A DNA stretch of 64,000 nucleotides from Bacilli bacterium (lineage in GTDB: Bacteria > Bacillota_I > Bacilli_A > RF39 > UBA660): the NCBI GenBank assembly GCA_017511805.1, contig JAFWJA010000021.1, forward strand, positions 1 through 64,000, given 5' to 3'. This document shows positions 5,450-45,034 of this stretch, one piece after another. Made by a program: the position numbers and the translations under genes. The notes below the pieces were generated by a model, which was given only the letters and a program-made list of their open reading frames with translations, did not search any database and was not told the DNA's origin. Position 1 is the stretch's first letter. Each line of letters starts with the position of its first letter.

Positions 5450-6445
5450 ATGAACAATGAAGTAAAAAGTAACATAACAAATGAAGAAATTGAAAAATCG
5501 ATTAATATAATTAATGGATTATCAACTTATTATGATGAAAGAATAGTAGGTCAAAGAAATTTAAAAAATGCACTTATTATATCTTTTATGATAGGTGGGC
5601 ATATTTTATTAGAATCTGTACCTGGACTAGCAAAAACAACTGGTGCGAAGGTATTAACTGATGCGGTAAACGCTAAGTTCTCAAAAATACAATGTACTCC
5701 AGATTTATTACCTAGTGATATAGTAGGTACTCAAATATTTAATTATAGTACTAATAAGTTTGATACTATTATAGGTCCAATAAATGCAAATTTCGTTCTT
5801 CTAGATGAAGTAAATAGATCTAGTGCAAAAACTCAAAGTGCAATGCTAGAAGTAATGCAAGAAAAGAAAGTAACTATCGCAGGTGTAACTTATAAAATGC
5901 CTGATCCTTTTGTTGTAATAGCTACACAAAATCCAATTGAACAAGAAGGAACTTATTTATTATCAGAAGCTCAAACAGATAGATTTGTTTTAAAGGAAAT
6001 AATAGATTATCCTACACCAGAAGAAGAGGTAACAATTCTGGATAGAATAGAATCTGGAATAATTGATGAAGTTAAGCCTGTAATGAAAGTGGATTCTATC
6101 TTATATTTACAACAAATAGTTAAAAAAGTATATGTCGATGATTCAATAAAAAAATATATTACTTCTATTATTGATGCGACTAGACATCCAGAAAAATATA
6201 TATCACGTGACTTAGTTAAATATATAGAATTAGGTTCTTCTCCAAGAGGTGCAATTGCAATAATGAATGTTGCAAAAGCAATTGCTTTGTGGAATAAAAG
6301 AACATATGTAACTCCAGATGATTGTAAGGCAATGATTCATAGTATTTTAAGACATAGAATAGTTCTTAATTATGCTGCTGTTGCAGATGGAATAAAAGTA
6401 GAACAAGTAATAGATAGTATAATGGGAGCAATTAATACACCATGA
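5450..6445 (+). CDS. moxR: MoxR-family AAA+ ATPase
   Basis: A 331-aa AAA+ chaperone-type ATPase. Near residues 55-62 it has ESVPGLAKTTG, the MoxR form of Walker A (G-x-P-G-x-x-K-T), then Walker B FVLLDEVNRS near 120, and sensor 1 VIATQNPIEQEGTY near 160. The lid domain with the SPRG motif (GSSPRGAIA) is near residue 265. MoxR ATPases act with VWA-domain partners in complex maturation or stress responses, often at the membrane. It leads a six-gene operon whose genes mostly overlap by 4 to 17 nt, strongly suggesting co-translated subunits. The stop overlaps the next start. Confidence 0.92.
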   Translation: MNNEVKSNITNEEIEKSINIINGLSTYYDERIVGQRNLKNALIISFMIGGHILLESVPGLAKTTGAKVLTDAVNAKFSKIQCTPDLLPSDIVGTQIFNYSTNKFDTIIGPINANFVLLDEVNRSSAKTQSAMLEVMQEKKVTIAGVTYKMPDPFVVIATQNPIEQEGTYLLSEAQTDRFVLKEIIDYPTPEEEVTILDRIESGIIDEVKPVMKVDSILYLQQIVKKVYVDDSIKKYITSIIDATRHPEKYISRDLVKYIELGSSPRGAIAIMNVAKAIALWNKRTYVTPDDCKAMIHSILRHRIVLNYAAVADGIKVEQVIDSIMGAINTP

Positions 6446-7317
6446 GACTACAATATATAGAGAAAATAAGAAAAAATATATCTATTCAAGCTTCTAAAAA
6501 AACTGTAAGTTTATTAGAAGGTTTATATAAATCAGTTTTTCATGGGAAAAGTATGGATTTTGATGATCTTAGAGATTATGTAGTAGGTGACAATAGTAAA
6601 GATATAGATTGGAAATCATCTATAAGACATGGATCATTATTAATAAGAAGATATTGTGCATATCGTAGACATAATATGATATTTATAGTTGATTCTGGTA
6701 AAAAAATTAATGGAATTACTGAGTCCGGTGAAAATAAAAGTGATATTGCACTTTATGTATTTGGTACACTTGCTTATCTTATTAATAAAAATGAAGATGA
6801 AATATCTACTGTTTATAATAAAAATGGTAGTATAATGGCTAAACCATTCAAGACTGGTCTACCTAATATTGAAATGACAATAAATGATCTAGAAAAGAAT
6901 ATATTATTAGATAATAGTTTTAGTATAAATGAATTACTAGAATATCCATTAAAACGATTTAAAAGAAAAATGATATTCATAGTTATATCTGATTTAGATG
7001 GCGCGAATAATATTACAGAAAATATGTTGAAAAAAATTACAGCAAGTCATGATTTATTATTTATTAATATAAGTGATGCATCAATTTGTGATAGTGATTT
7101 ATATGATTTGAATGAAGATAAAGATATACCTAGATATATATCTAAGAATAAACTTTTAAAAGAAGAAGAAAAGGAAATTAAAAAAGAATTAATAGATAAA
7201 AATAATAGAAAATTTAAAAAATATAGAATTAGTACAGTTACTATTTCAAGTAAAAAAGAAATAGTAGATAGTATTATAGATTTATTAGAAAGGCATAATC
7301 ATGCAATTAGACATTAG
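6442..7317 (+). CDS. DUF58 domain protein
   Basis: A 291-aa soluble protein that overlaps moxR by 4 nt. Near residues 34-70 it carries the DUF58 signature: DFDDLRDYVVGDNSKDIDWK followed by SSIRHGSLLIRRY. The C-terminal part (MIFIVDSGKKING, MIFIVISDLDG) resembles a VWA-like Rossmann fold whose MIDAS is incomplete. DUF58 proteins are almost always encoded next to MoxR and are thought to bridge the ATPase and its VWA partners. No membrane segment is apparent. Confidence 0.85.
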   Translation: MRLQYIEKIRKNISIQASKKTVSLLEGLYKSVFHGKSMDFDDLRDYVVGDNSKDIDWKSSIRHGSLLIRRYCAYRRHNMIFIVDSGKKINGITESGENKSDIALYVFGTLAYLINKNEDEISTVYNKNGSIMAKPFKTGLPNIEMTINDLEKNILLDNSFSINELLEYPLKRFKRKMIFIVISDLDGANNITENMLKKITASHDLLFINISDASICDSDLYDLNEDKDIPRYISKNKLLKEEEKEIKKELIDKNNRKFKKYRISTVTISSKKEIVDSIIDLLERHNHAIRH

Positions 7318-7756
7318 TTTAAACGAACCATTTACATATTCTTATTTACCATTAATAATATCATTTATATTATTAGTGGTTTTTGTAGTGATATTTTTAT
7401 GCTTTAATATAAAAAGAAAAAAGAAAGTTAGTATCATTAAAGAAGTTATTATTCCTAAAAATATAAATGATATAAAAAATAAATATCTAAAAGAATTGGA
7501 TGAACTACTTAATGATAAATCACTATCAAAAAGAAAAATATATAATAAACTAAGTGTAATAATAAGAAGTTTTGTATTAGAAGCTACTAATATTGATGTT
7601 TTAAAATATAGTTTAGCGGAAATTAAAACTTTAAAAATGGATGAGTTAACTAATCTAGTAGAAGATTATTATGAACCAGAATTTAGTAAAGAATCTAATG
7701 CTGATTCAATTGCCTCAATTAAAAATACAAGGGAGGTAATAGAAAAATGGAAATAA
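7301..7756 (+). CDS. Small membrane protein of the MoxR operon (DUF4381-like)
   Basis: A 151-aa protein with one strong transmembrane helix near residues 17-38, then a basic stretch (IKRKKK) and a cytoplasmic helical domain. The position between DUF58 and VWA genes, and the layout of one helix plus a C-terminal helical domain ending EVIEKWK, match the DUF4381-type subunit of Bat/MRP operons. It overlaps both neighbours (17 nt before, 10 nt after). Assignment rests on context more than sequence. Confidence 0.55.
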   Translation: MQLDISLNEPFTYSYLPLIISFILLVVFVVIFLCFNIKRKKKVSIIKEVIIPKNINDIKNKYLKELDELLNDKSLSKRKIYNKLSVIIRSFVLEATNIDVLKYSLAEIKTLKMDELTNLVEDYYEPEFSKESNADSIASIKNTREVIEKWK

Positions 7757-37078: not shown

Positions 37079-37456
37079 GGGGCTGTAATTGGTTTCGACA
37101 GGAATATTAAGTACTAAACTGCAAGTCGGAGGAACACGTTACGAACAACAAGCAATAAATGCTAATAAAGTTAAAAACGTATTTGCTAATCTATTCAGAA
37201 GCAATAGTTTAGCTTTAGCCTAATAATAAGGTAAATACACTTTCTATTGATTATTTTCTACGTGATCTTTAGAAGGTTCGATTTTAGTAGAATATATTAT
37301 TACTATGCCTATGTGTAATAATGAATTTTTTAGGCTTACTAAATATTTTAGTTGTTAATTAATTTAGTATTTAGGACATTTTATAATTAACTAAACTTGT
37401 AGATGTTTTTTATAAGATATTTTTGGACAGGAGTTCAATTCTCCTCAGCTCCACCA
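37079..37456 (+). ncRNA. ssrA: Transfer-messenger RNA (tmRNA)
   Basis: The RNA frees stalled ribosomes and tags the truncated peptide. The 5' end GGGGCUG pairs with 3' CAGCUCC (one G-U pair) to form the acceptor, and the 3' CCA is encoded (ends 37456). The T arm reads GGAGTTCAATTCTCC. The tag frame ends LFRSNSLALA before the two stops TAATAA at 37221-37226. The resume codon is either GCA at 37152 or GCT at 37161, giving a 23- or 20-residue tag. The tag ends ALA rather than the common ALAA. It is one-piece and of ordinary length (378 nt). Confidence 0.97.
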
Positions 37457-42402: not shown

Positions 42403-42837
42403 ATGAAAAAATTATTTATATATTATTCATTAACTGGCAATGGTAATATTGTTGCTAAAGAGTTTAAGAAGAGAAACTATGATATAAGAGAAATAAAGGT
42501 AAAGAAATCACTTCCAAAACCATTCTTTTTAAGAATGATGGTTGGAGGATTTAAAGCGTTAATTAAAAAGAAAGAAAAGTTAATTAATTTTAATGAAAAG
42601 GTTGATAGTTATGCTGAAATAGTAATTGGATCTCCAATTTGGTTTGATAGATTATGTTCACCAGTAATGACAGCTTTAAGAAAACTAAATCTTGATGATA
42701 AAAAAGTAAGATTTGTTTTATATAGTGGTAGTGGAAATGCTAATAAGGCTGAAGAATATATCAAAGCTAATTATAAAGCTAAAATAACAGTTTTAGAACA
42801 ACCAAAGAAAAATGAAAAAGAACTTAAAAAAATATAA
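42403..42837 (+). CDS. Flavodoxin-like protein
   Basis: A 144-aa protein with an FMN phosphate-binding loop YYSLTGNGNIVA near residues 7-18, followed by EIVIGSPIWFDRLCSPVM near 72-89 and FVLYSGSGNA near 105-114, the three FMN-contact loops of flavodoxins. It may carry electrons for the flavoenzyme encoded next (15 nt downstream), or have another role. RBS AGGTGA. Confidence 0.8.
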   Translation: MKKLFIYYSLTGNGNIVAKEFKKRNYDIREIKVKKSLPKPFFLRMMVGGFKALIKKKEKLINFNEKVDSYAEIVIGSPIWFDRLCSPVMTALRKLNLDDKKVRFVLYSGSGNANKAEEYIKANYKAKITVLEQPKKNEKELKKI

Positions 42838-42852
42838 ATTCAGGAGGGTATT

Positions 42853-44043
42853 ATGGAAAGTATGACAGTTAAGGTAGTAGGTTTAACTACTACAGATGAA
42901 GAACAAATAAAAAAGATTACTAAGGAAGACTACGAATTAAATGGAGGACATTCAGCAAATATATGTTATACACAAAAGAGTTATGATGAAATACTTGCAG
43001 AACCTATAGAAAAGACTATAGAAAGAGCAAATGGTAATAAAGAGAATAAACATCATTCTGTATTTGGTCATGATAACATCGAATTATATTTTGAAGGAAT
43101 ACCTAAAATAATTGCAATGCTTATTAATAATGAAAAAGAATATAATACATCAGAAAAATCAGGTAGATATACTACTATGTTTGGTAGTGAAAAAGAAAAT
43201 GAATTATATAATAAATGGAAAGAGATTTTTATAAATGAAATAAAAAGAGAATATCCTAATGAAGCTTATTTAACTGATAAAATGATTACAAAGAAAGCTA
43301 TGGAAAACTCTAGATATTTATTATCAGTATTCATGAGAACTAAAATGAAGTACACAACTAGCTTTAGACAATTAAATTATTTATATGATTTTACTTGTAA
43401 GATGATTAGTGAAGATACAACTAATCCTTTGAAGTGTGAATTAAAACCATATTTAGAAGAATTTAGAGATACACTTTTATCCACAGGATTTATATCTGAA
43501 GGAATAAGAGAATACAGAAATAGATCATTCTCACTAATACAAGATGATAATAGTTTTGATGATCAATTTGGTAGATGCTATTCAGTTAATTATGATTCAA
43601 CATTCCCAGCACTTGCTGATCTTCAAAGACATAGAAGTTTAGATTATTCATTATCTTTAAAAGAAGATAGAGATTTCTATGTACCTAAAATTATTAGCGA
43701 TAAATCTGATTTAGTAAGAGAGTGGAAAGATGATATGAATTCAGTTTCTACTTTTCCACAGGGATTACTAGTTAATGTTAATGAAACAGGTAAATATGAA
43801 GACTTTATAATGAAATTATATGAAAGATTATGTACTGCTGCTCAACTAGAGGTATGTGATATTACTAAAGAAACATTAACTAAATATGTTAAATCTCTTG
43901 AATTATCAGAGTTAAAAAGTAATAAAAAGATATTAGAAGAAATGAAAAAATTTACTATAGGAGCAAGATGTACTTTTGAAGAATTTGATTGCCCTAGTCC
44001 TTGTAAGTTTGTAAAAGGAATAATATTAACAAGAAAAATATAG
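42853..44043 (+). CDS. ThyX-like flavin-dependent protein with two half-domains
   Basis: A 396-aa protein, about twice the size of most ThyX. The first half has HHSVFGHDNIELYFEGIPKI and then NTSEKSGRYTTM, like the H...EH...F and N-E-x-S-x-R-Y parts of ThyX, but without RHR. The second half has ALADLQRHRSLDYSLS near residue 260-275, which supplies an RHR. So the usual R-H-R-x(7)-S-R-Y signature seems split over two copies. ThyX makes dTMP using FAD and methylene-THF; whether this does is unknown. In operon with flavodoxin upstream and DHH protein downstream. Confidence 0.55.
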   Translation: MESMTVKVVGLTTTDEEQIKKITKEDYELNGGHSANICYTQKSYDEILAEPIEKTIERANGNKENKHHSVFGHDNIELYFEGIPKIIAMLINNEKEYNTSEKSGRYTTMFGSEKENELYNKWKEIFINEIKREYPNEAYLTDKMITKKAMENSRYLLSVFMRTKMKYTTSFRQLNYLYDFTCKMISEDTTNPLKCELKPYLEEFRDTLLSTGFISEGIREYRNRSFSLIQDDNSFDDQFGRCYSVNYDSTFPALADLQRHRSLDYSLSLKEDRDFYVPKIISDKSDLVREWKDDMNSVSTFPQGLLVNVNETGKYEDFIMKLYERLCTAAQLEVCDITKETLTKYVKSLELSELKSNKKILEEMKKFTIGARCTFEEFDCPSPCKFVKGIILTRKI

Positions 44044-44050
44044 GTGAATT

Positions 44051-45034
44051 ATGAAAATACTATTATTAAGTCACGAAAGCGATATAGATGGAATGGGAAG
44101 TGTAGTTCTATCTAAAATAGTTTTTGGGGATATTGAATATGAATTATTTCCAAATGTAGATGAACTTGAATTAAAGGTTCGTAAATATATAGAGGATAAT
44201 TATTTTGATGATTTTGATACTGTTTATATTACAGATTTATCACTTTTAAGACCAGCAATTGATATGGTTAATGATAATGAATCATTAAAGAAAAAAATAA
44301 AGATATTTGATCATCATCAAAGAGCAATAGATGATGGTTTAGATAAATATGACTTTTCCACAGTAATAGAAAGAGATGAATTAGGTAATAAAACTTGTGC
44401 AACTTCTATCTTCTATAACTATTTAGTTAAGAATAAATATTTAGATGAAAATGACACACTAAAAGAGTTCTGTGAACTTACAAGATTAGAAGACACTTGG
44501 TCTTGGGAAGAAAAAGGAGACTTTGGATTTAAAGCTCATGACTTAGCAATACTATTTAGTGCTATTGGAAAAGAGAAATATATAGAAAAAATGGTGAATA
44601 AAATAAAAAATAATTCACTTGATTTTGATACAGAAGATTTAGATAATATTATTAACAAAAAAACTGAATATGAAAATAAAGTAAGGGAATATATTAATGA
44701 TTCTATCTACTTATATGATGAAGATAATAATAAATTTGGAATAACATATGCACCATATGAATATAGAAACGAAATTACCCACAAGATAATTAATGATGGT
44801 AATAAAAATGATATTAGTTACATGATAGTGGTCGCTTTAGATAAAGGAGACTTTGGTCAAAAATCATATAGAAAAGTAAAAGATGATTTTGATGTTAATG
44901 AAGTAGCTAAAAAATATGGTGGTGGAGGACATCCAGGAGCAGCAGGTGTTTATATAACAAAAGACCAAAATGAGAAATCATCAACTATGCCAAAAGAAGA
45001 TGCACTAAAATATTTATCGACTTGTTCTCAATAA
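44051..45034 (+). CDS. DHH-family phosphoesterase
   Basis: A 327-aa protein with an N-terminal DHH domain (SHESDIDGMGSVVL, VYITDLS, KIFDHHQRAID) and the C-terminal DHHA1 motif GGGGHPGAAGVYI. Members include NrnA/NrnB nanoRNases and c-di-AMP phosphodiesterases (which add sensory domains, absent here). It could degrade pApA or short oligonucleotides, relevant because cdaA is in this window. Starts 8 nt after the ThyX-like gene. Confidence 0.82.
   Translation: MKILLLSHESDIDGMGSVVLSKIVFGDIEYELFPNVDELELKVRKYIEDNYFDDFDTVYITDLSLLRPAIDMVNDNESLKKKIKIFDHHQRAIDDGLDKYDFSTVIERDELGNKTCATSIFYNYLVKNKYLDENDTLKEFCELTRLEDTWSWEEKGDFGFKAHDLAILFSAIGKEKYIEKMVNKIKNNSLDFDTEDLDNIINKKTEYENKVREYINDSIYLYDEDNNKFGITYAPYEYRNEITHKIINDGNKNDISYMIVVALDKGDFGQKSYRKVKDDFDVNEVAKKYGGGGHPGAAGVYITKDQNEKSSTMPKEDALKYLSTCSQ

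Follow-up and report, generated by a model that had tools for sequence, protein, structure and literature searches.

The window analysed here, a 64,000-nt stretch of DNA from a member of the Bacilli, contains a gene that is probably the organism's thymidylate synthase, encoding a fused ThyX pseudo-dimer in which the labour of the active site is divided between the two halves of one chain (Table 1). Its product most probably functions in the manner of ThyX, forming a pseudo-tetramer with two sites. On a broader scale, we lean slightly towards the view that many uncultured Bacilli make thymidylate de novo with an obligately asymmetric ThyX that arose by an old fusion, with split roles, two working and two dead sites, and an N-N-E loop that has taken on a new function, structural or regulatory.

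Table 1. Features of the putative tandem thyX gene and its upstream neighbour, in window coordinates
Feature	Position	Strand	Evidence
Tandem (double-domain) ThyX-like protein, 396 aa	42853..44043	+	ORF; RBS aggaggg at 42842-42848; PF02511, 43.9 bits; AlphaFold2 model
N half (residues 1-207), with a ThyX fold suited to subunit roles B and C	42853..43473	+	Z 12.2 against T. maritima ThyX by VIA-align (model residues 1-225)
C half (residues 208-396), with a shortened ThyX fold suited to role A	43474..44040	+	Modelled alone, pLDDT 90.0; Z 12.1 against M. tuberculosis ThyX by VIA-align
S-x-R-Y, residues 103-106 (T. maritima S88, G89, R90, Y91)	43159..43170	+	S103, R105 and Y106 each in 81/82
R154 (T. 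maritima R147)	43312..43314	+	82/82
RHR, residues 259-261 (T. maritima 78-80)	43627..43635	+	81/82, 80/82, 81/82
R325 (T. maritima R174)	43825..43827	+	81/82
Flavodoxin-like gene, judged outside the system	42403..42837	+	Weak flavodoxin matches below cut-off

Two predicted ThyX folds in one chain

The 396-codon ORF opens with an ATG preceded by a ribosome-binding site, and Pfam and NCBIfam models detect the N half alone in its product. The PF02511 (Thy1) match covers residues 33-181 and passes its gathering cut-off (43.9 versus 24.8 bits), and the NCBI equivalog model for ThyX, TIGR02170, falls below its own (27.1 versus 87.9 bits). The RHR-x7-S-x-R signature is not contiguous within one domain, RHR lying in the C half and S-x-R in the N half. 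The original prediction had placed these motif parts on two half-domains, which is borne out, at a spacing of about 140 residues, which the ORF positions (SGRY at residues 103-106, RHR at 259-261) revise to about 155. Because both the contiguous signature and a score above the equivalog cut-off are lacking, we do not class the protein as ThyX proper.

In the AlphaFold2 model, built with an alignment of 79 family members (pLDDT 90.4, pTM 0.88), the protein consists of two consecutive ThyX folds. The least confident stretches are residues 11-20 (mean 49), followed by residues 101-110 (63), which contain the active-site loop; this loop is described as flexible in ThyX (PMC11940539). The structure search with the whole model covered residues 1-225, and the C half was hence modelled and searched by itself. 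Structure prediction, which had been suggested as a check, returned a ThyX fold in either half: residues 1-225 aligned with T. maritima ThyX over 167 residues (rmsd 2.9) and residues 208-396 with M. tuberculosis ThyX over 132 residues (rmsd 2.3), both at the Z scores given in Table 1, and the top match outside the ThyX fold in either list had a Z of 4.1. Profile comparison to single ThyX gave 97.2% for the N half and 91.5% for the C half. A PDB sequence search with the window protein returned nothing up to E 1, and the family profile reached PBCV-1 ThyX, by the N half only.

A scan of GTDB species genomes recovered 138 relatives (type A below). Of the 80 listed, 78 are full length (386-415 aa); by their titles, these records come from uncultured Bacilli, Tenericutes and Erysipelotrichaceae, with some from Clostridia. 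Comparison of the protein of locus L018 with an even phylum sample gave matches in 4 of 392 genomes: the one that holds the window, two others from its family, and a fourth from elsewhere whose match is weak and partial. The window protein, L003, L005, L006 and 78 others make up the 82-sequence alignment used below, from which L066 and L084 were excluded because they are truncated where their contigs end; L004 and L018 denote a single gene. One assembly, JAQVZV01, carries two differing type-A copies (L071 and L080), and loci L101-L106, from another family of the class, encode a ThyX of about 293-296 aa whose match is broken in two by a long insertion separating RHR from the H53 region.

Division of the active-site residues between the halves

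In the alignment (n = 82, T. maritima numbering), the N half keeps H53 (81), S/T55 (82), E86 (82), S88 (81), R90 (81), Y91 (81), R147 (82) and R165 (78), and the C half keeps Q75 (79), R78 (81), H79 (80), R80 (81) and R174 (81). At the positions kept by the C half, the N half carries V/I/L/F at 75, N at 78 (82/82), E at 79 (81/82), mostly H/K at 80 and mostly M/I/L/F at 174. Conversely, the C half presents M/I/L/F at 86, mostly M/I/L/R at 88, mostly D/E/K/N at 90, mostly E/D/N/K at 91 and V/L/I/T at 147, and the H53 and S55 stretch has no conserved counterpart there. All eleven tested residues are present in 77 of the 82 sequences. The window protein has ten of them, with D at Q75, a change shared with L003; the other incomplete members are L063 (Y91 to F), L087 (H79 to S) and L089. 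In the last of these (L089:1449-2642) eight of the eleven are gone, and their joint loss from both halves fits one joint site; its genome has no detected ThyA or other Thy1. Since both sets are kept, and the opposite positions replaced, across 82 members, the split cannot be put down to chance in a single sequence. The earlier impression that each half retains the residues missing from the other is thus upheld as complementary conservation, and the partition tracks the subunit that supplies each residue.

In the M. tuberculosis ThyX site, according to PMC6514825, subunit A gives RHR and R199, subunit B gives S71 and R190, and subunit C gives S105, R107, Y108 and R87, the last being a further dUMP contact. 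In our own alignment R199 corresponds to T. maritima R174, S71 to T55, R190 to R165, and S105/R107/Y108 to S88/R90/Y91; R87 falls in register with K85 of the N half, which is invariant (82/82) and is F, L, Y or I in the C half. Two further accounts report that in PBCV-1 ThyX one monomer supplies Q75 and R182 and another S88 and Q89 (PMC3498832), and that H53 is contributed by a third monomer (PMC11940539). Sorted by subunit in this way, the site residues leave the C halves suited to role A only and the N halves to roles B and C.

We propose that two chains would assemble like the canonical ThyX tetramer, with N1, C1, N2 and C2 in place of its four subunits. The C half would bring RHR and R174, with their FAD and dUMP contacts, to each working site, and two N halves would contribute the S-x-R-Y/R147 dUMP loop together with the FAD-phosphate and folate-side residues (S55, R165, H53). 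In a D2 tetramer with C halves as subunits A and D, a single pair of N halves would serve both of them as partners B and C, with roles swapped; D2 symmetry would then give exactly two complete sites, and the two mirror sites, without RHR and R174, would be dead. The chemistry would be that of ThyX, methylation of dUMP to dTMP by methylene-THF and reduced FAD, presumably with NADPH as reductant by analogy. We infer the assembly, FAD binding and activity alike; the halves meeting in one site may belong to one chain or to different chains. The loop that replaces RHR in the N half, N-N-E at residues 92-94 (window positions 43126-43134), is itself conserved, in 81, 82 (N93) and 81 (E94) of 82 sequences. 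This conservation counts against the two-site account, because a dead site should not need such a loop, which has not decayed and may serve something beyond that account.

Thymidylate supply, gene context and alternative readings

Among the 80 relatives listed of the 138, tmk lies within 20 nt of thyX on the same strand at 35 loci (27 after, 8 before), glyA precedes thyX by 20 nt or less at 7, and folD is found within 1.8 kb at 6, with the order folD, glyA, thyX, tmk in L069, L070, L076 and L082. The 386-aa product of the ORF 3' of thyX in L082 (approximately 6221-7400) matches Tmk, and its start coincides with a DHFR match (G468:C28:9517-9981); this ORF is apparently a DHFR-Tmk fusion adjoining thyX.

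The search for other thymidylate synthases, likewise proposed as a check, detected neither ThyA nor a second ThyX, nor DHFR, in the window's 1.45-Mb, 91%-complete source genome; a thymidine kinase is present, so salvage is possible too. Genome searches for other synthases and DHFR covered 50 of the 80 listed loci. The type-A protein was the sole synthase found in 44 of these 50 genomes, including that of L089 and one with two type-A copies. ThyA accompanied it in four, so its exclusion is not absolute, and two genomes without ThyA (G444 and G464) have, besides type A, a ThyX of one domain and a partial match to Thy1. DHFR was undetected in 46 of the 50, an absence expected of ThyX users. Among 60 relatives, ThyA was found in 36 and Thy1 in 12 without a single co-occurrence (chance 1.9e-6, treating related genomes as independent), and within the family (n = 37) the counts were 16 and 12, again with none harbouring both (chance 1.6e-4, on the same treatment of related genomes as independent). 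Eight genomes of the window's genus (G002, G004, G006-G011), several of them incomplete, have a divergent ThyA match and no DHFR match, which is odd because the dihydrofolate produced by ThyA must be reduced. Nine family genomes (G001, G005, G015, G021, G022, G024, G028, G031 and G035) have no ThyA or Thy1 match, and may reflect salvage, gaps or another synthase.

The reading of the protein as a fused ThyX is favoured because the ThyX matches of the two halves far outscore the best match outside the fold, conservation is complementary (K85 included), tmk, glyA or folD lie near the gene in a number of relatives, ThyA is nearly excluded, most type-A genomes have no other synthase or DHFR detected and dN/dS is low (0.10, see below); it is weakened by the D at Q75 in the window protein and L003, the retained N-N-E, the thymidine kinase, the L089 genome with only its degenerate copy and no ThyA detected, the four genomes with ThyA and the missed equivalog cut-off. 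A ThyX-derived methylase or flavoprotein acting on another substrate, comparable to PolB, with thymidine obtained by salvage, would likewise explain the divergent sequence below that cut-off, the thymidine kinase and the presence of PolB among the structural matches; we consider it unlikely, however, given that the dUMP-binding arginines and serine are retained and that both the gene context and the near-exclusion with ThyA run against it.

That the gene is decaying, or its product structural only, is more doubtful still: the losses in L089 and the Q75 change in the window point that way, but the full set of residues persists in nearly all members, and comparison of the window's thyX with that of its 90%-identical relative L003 gives a dN/dS of 0.10, which on these sequences places the window's own double gene under purifying selection. 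The least probable alternative, to which we give very little credence, is a ThyX variant driven by the upstream flavodoxin as dedicated electron donor, which the same strand and a 15-nt gap would suit and which the L003 locus and the 83 loci searched speak against.

The 144-codon flavodoxin-like ORF does end 15 nt 5' of the thyX ATG, as originally noted, and it is the electron-donor role that is not supported. In L003, the closest relative found among the matches listed, an ABC permease gene lies 92 nt upstream of thyX, a gap that leaves no room for the flavodoxin and small lipoprotein-like genes of the window. Phmmer (E 1e-3) found no flavodoxin homologue adjoining thyX at 83 loci, a search that may overlook a highly divergent one and in which 7 of the 80 main loci offer 700 bp or less upstream of thyX; its three matches lie about 3.4-4.6 kb from thyX, in L054 and L081. 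As the link is not conserved, the flavodoxin was rejected as a partner, and its proximity to thyX looks incidental. On the other side, 7 nt 3' of thyX, a DHH/DHHA1-domain protein is encoded at 44051-45034, and its homologue adjoins thyX only in L003 among the 83 loci; the window also holds a tmRNA gene at 37079-37456.

Origin and relation to known ThyX proteins

A second group of tandem ThyX proteins (type B) comprises ten sequences of 446-574 aa from the same bacterial family. As in type A, the N half keeps H53, S88, R90 and R147 (10/10 each) and the C half R78, R80 and R174 (10/10) and H79 (9/10). Unlike type A, type B has a full-length C half that Pfam recognises, and its N half keeps R80, has mostly E at Y91 and I/V at E86, and retains R165 in 2 of 10. 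The C halves of both types are sisters, with support of 100/99, or 100/93 without motif columns. Type-A N halves group with single ThyX in the first tree (94/85), where a single clade with type B is not rejected (p-AU 0.47), and join type-B N halves without motif columns at 66/87, which is not significant. The PBCV-1 fragment was omitted from both trees, and L107 and L110 from the second. Separate origins for the two types are not favoured, the C halves being sisters with and without motif columns; the simplest history suggested by the trees, in which long branches call for care, is one duplication and role division, followed by shortening of the type-A C half. A viral origin was set aside, as a scan of viral contigs confirmed no relative and PHROGs gave nothing better than E 0.05 for the window protein.

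ThyX, a target for antibacterials, has its site at the junction of three identical subunits, and a residue change in one role therefore hits the other roles too. In proteins of the window type, evolution appears to have separated these roles, leaving most site residues in a single one, and such proteins could reveal the residues required in each role, the behaviour of a ThyX with two sites and the importance, if any, of the additional sites in ordinary ThyX. A divided ThyX would also account for dTMP synthesis in many Bacilli that have small genomes and neither ThyA nor DHFR detectable.

We found no description of a divided ThyX active site in the open-access literature searched, nor, in the same literature, support for Chlamydia ThyX as a double-length relative. 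The divided site thus appears undescribed within that literature, and duplication of ThyX is already in print: Valas and Bourne 2009 (PMC3224940) note a domain-duplicated ThyX of Chloroflexi as uncharacterised, and this protein, compared here by description only, shares with the window protein two ThyX domains per chain. PolB of Streptomyces cacaoi (4p5a, 4p5b), a UMP/dUMP methylase (PMC5003785), puts the ThyX fold to altered use and is among the structural matches; it is a single-domain chain of 239 residues, and nothing points to another substrate for the window protein. With the canonical ThyX/FDTS enzymes (T. maritima TM0449 and those of M. tuberculosis, PBCV-1 and H. pylori) the fold of both halves and the residue set are held in common, whereas the window protein carries two domains per chain, a split signature and a predicted two, rather than four, complete sites.
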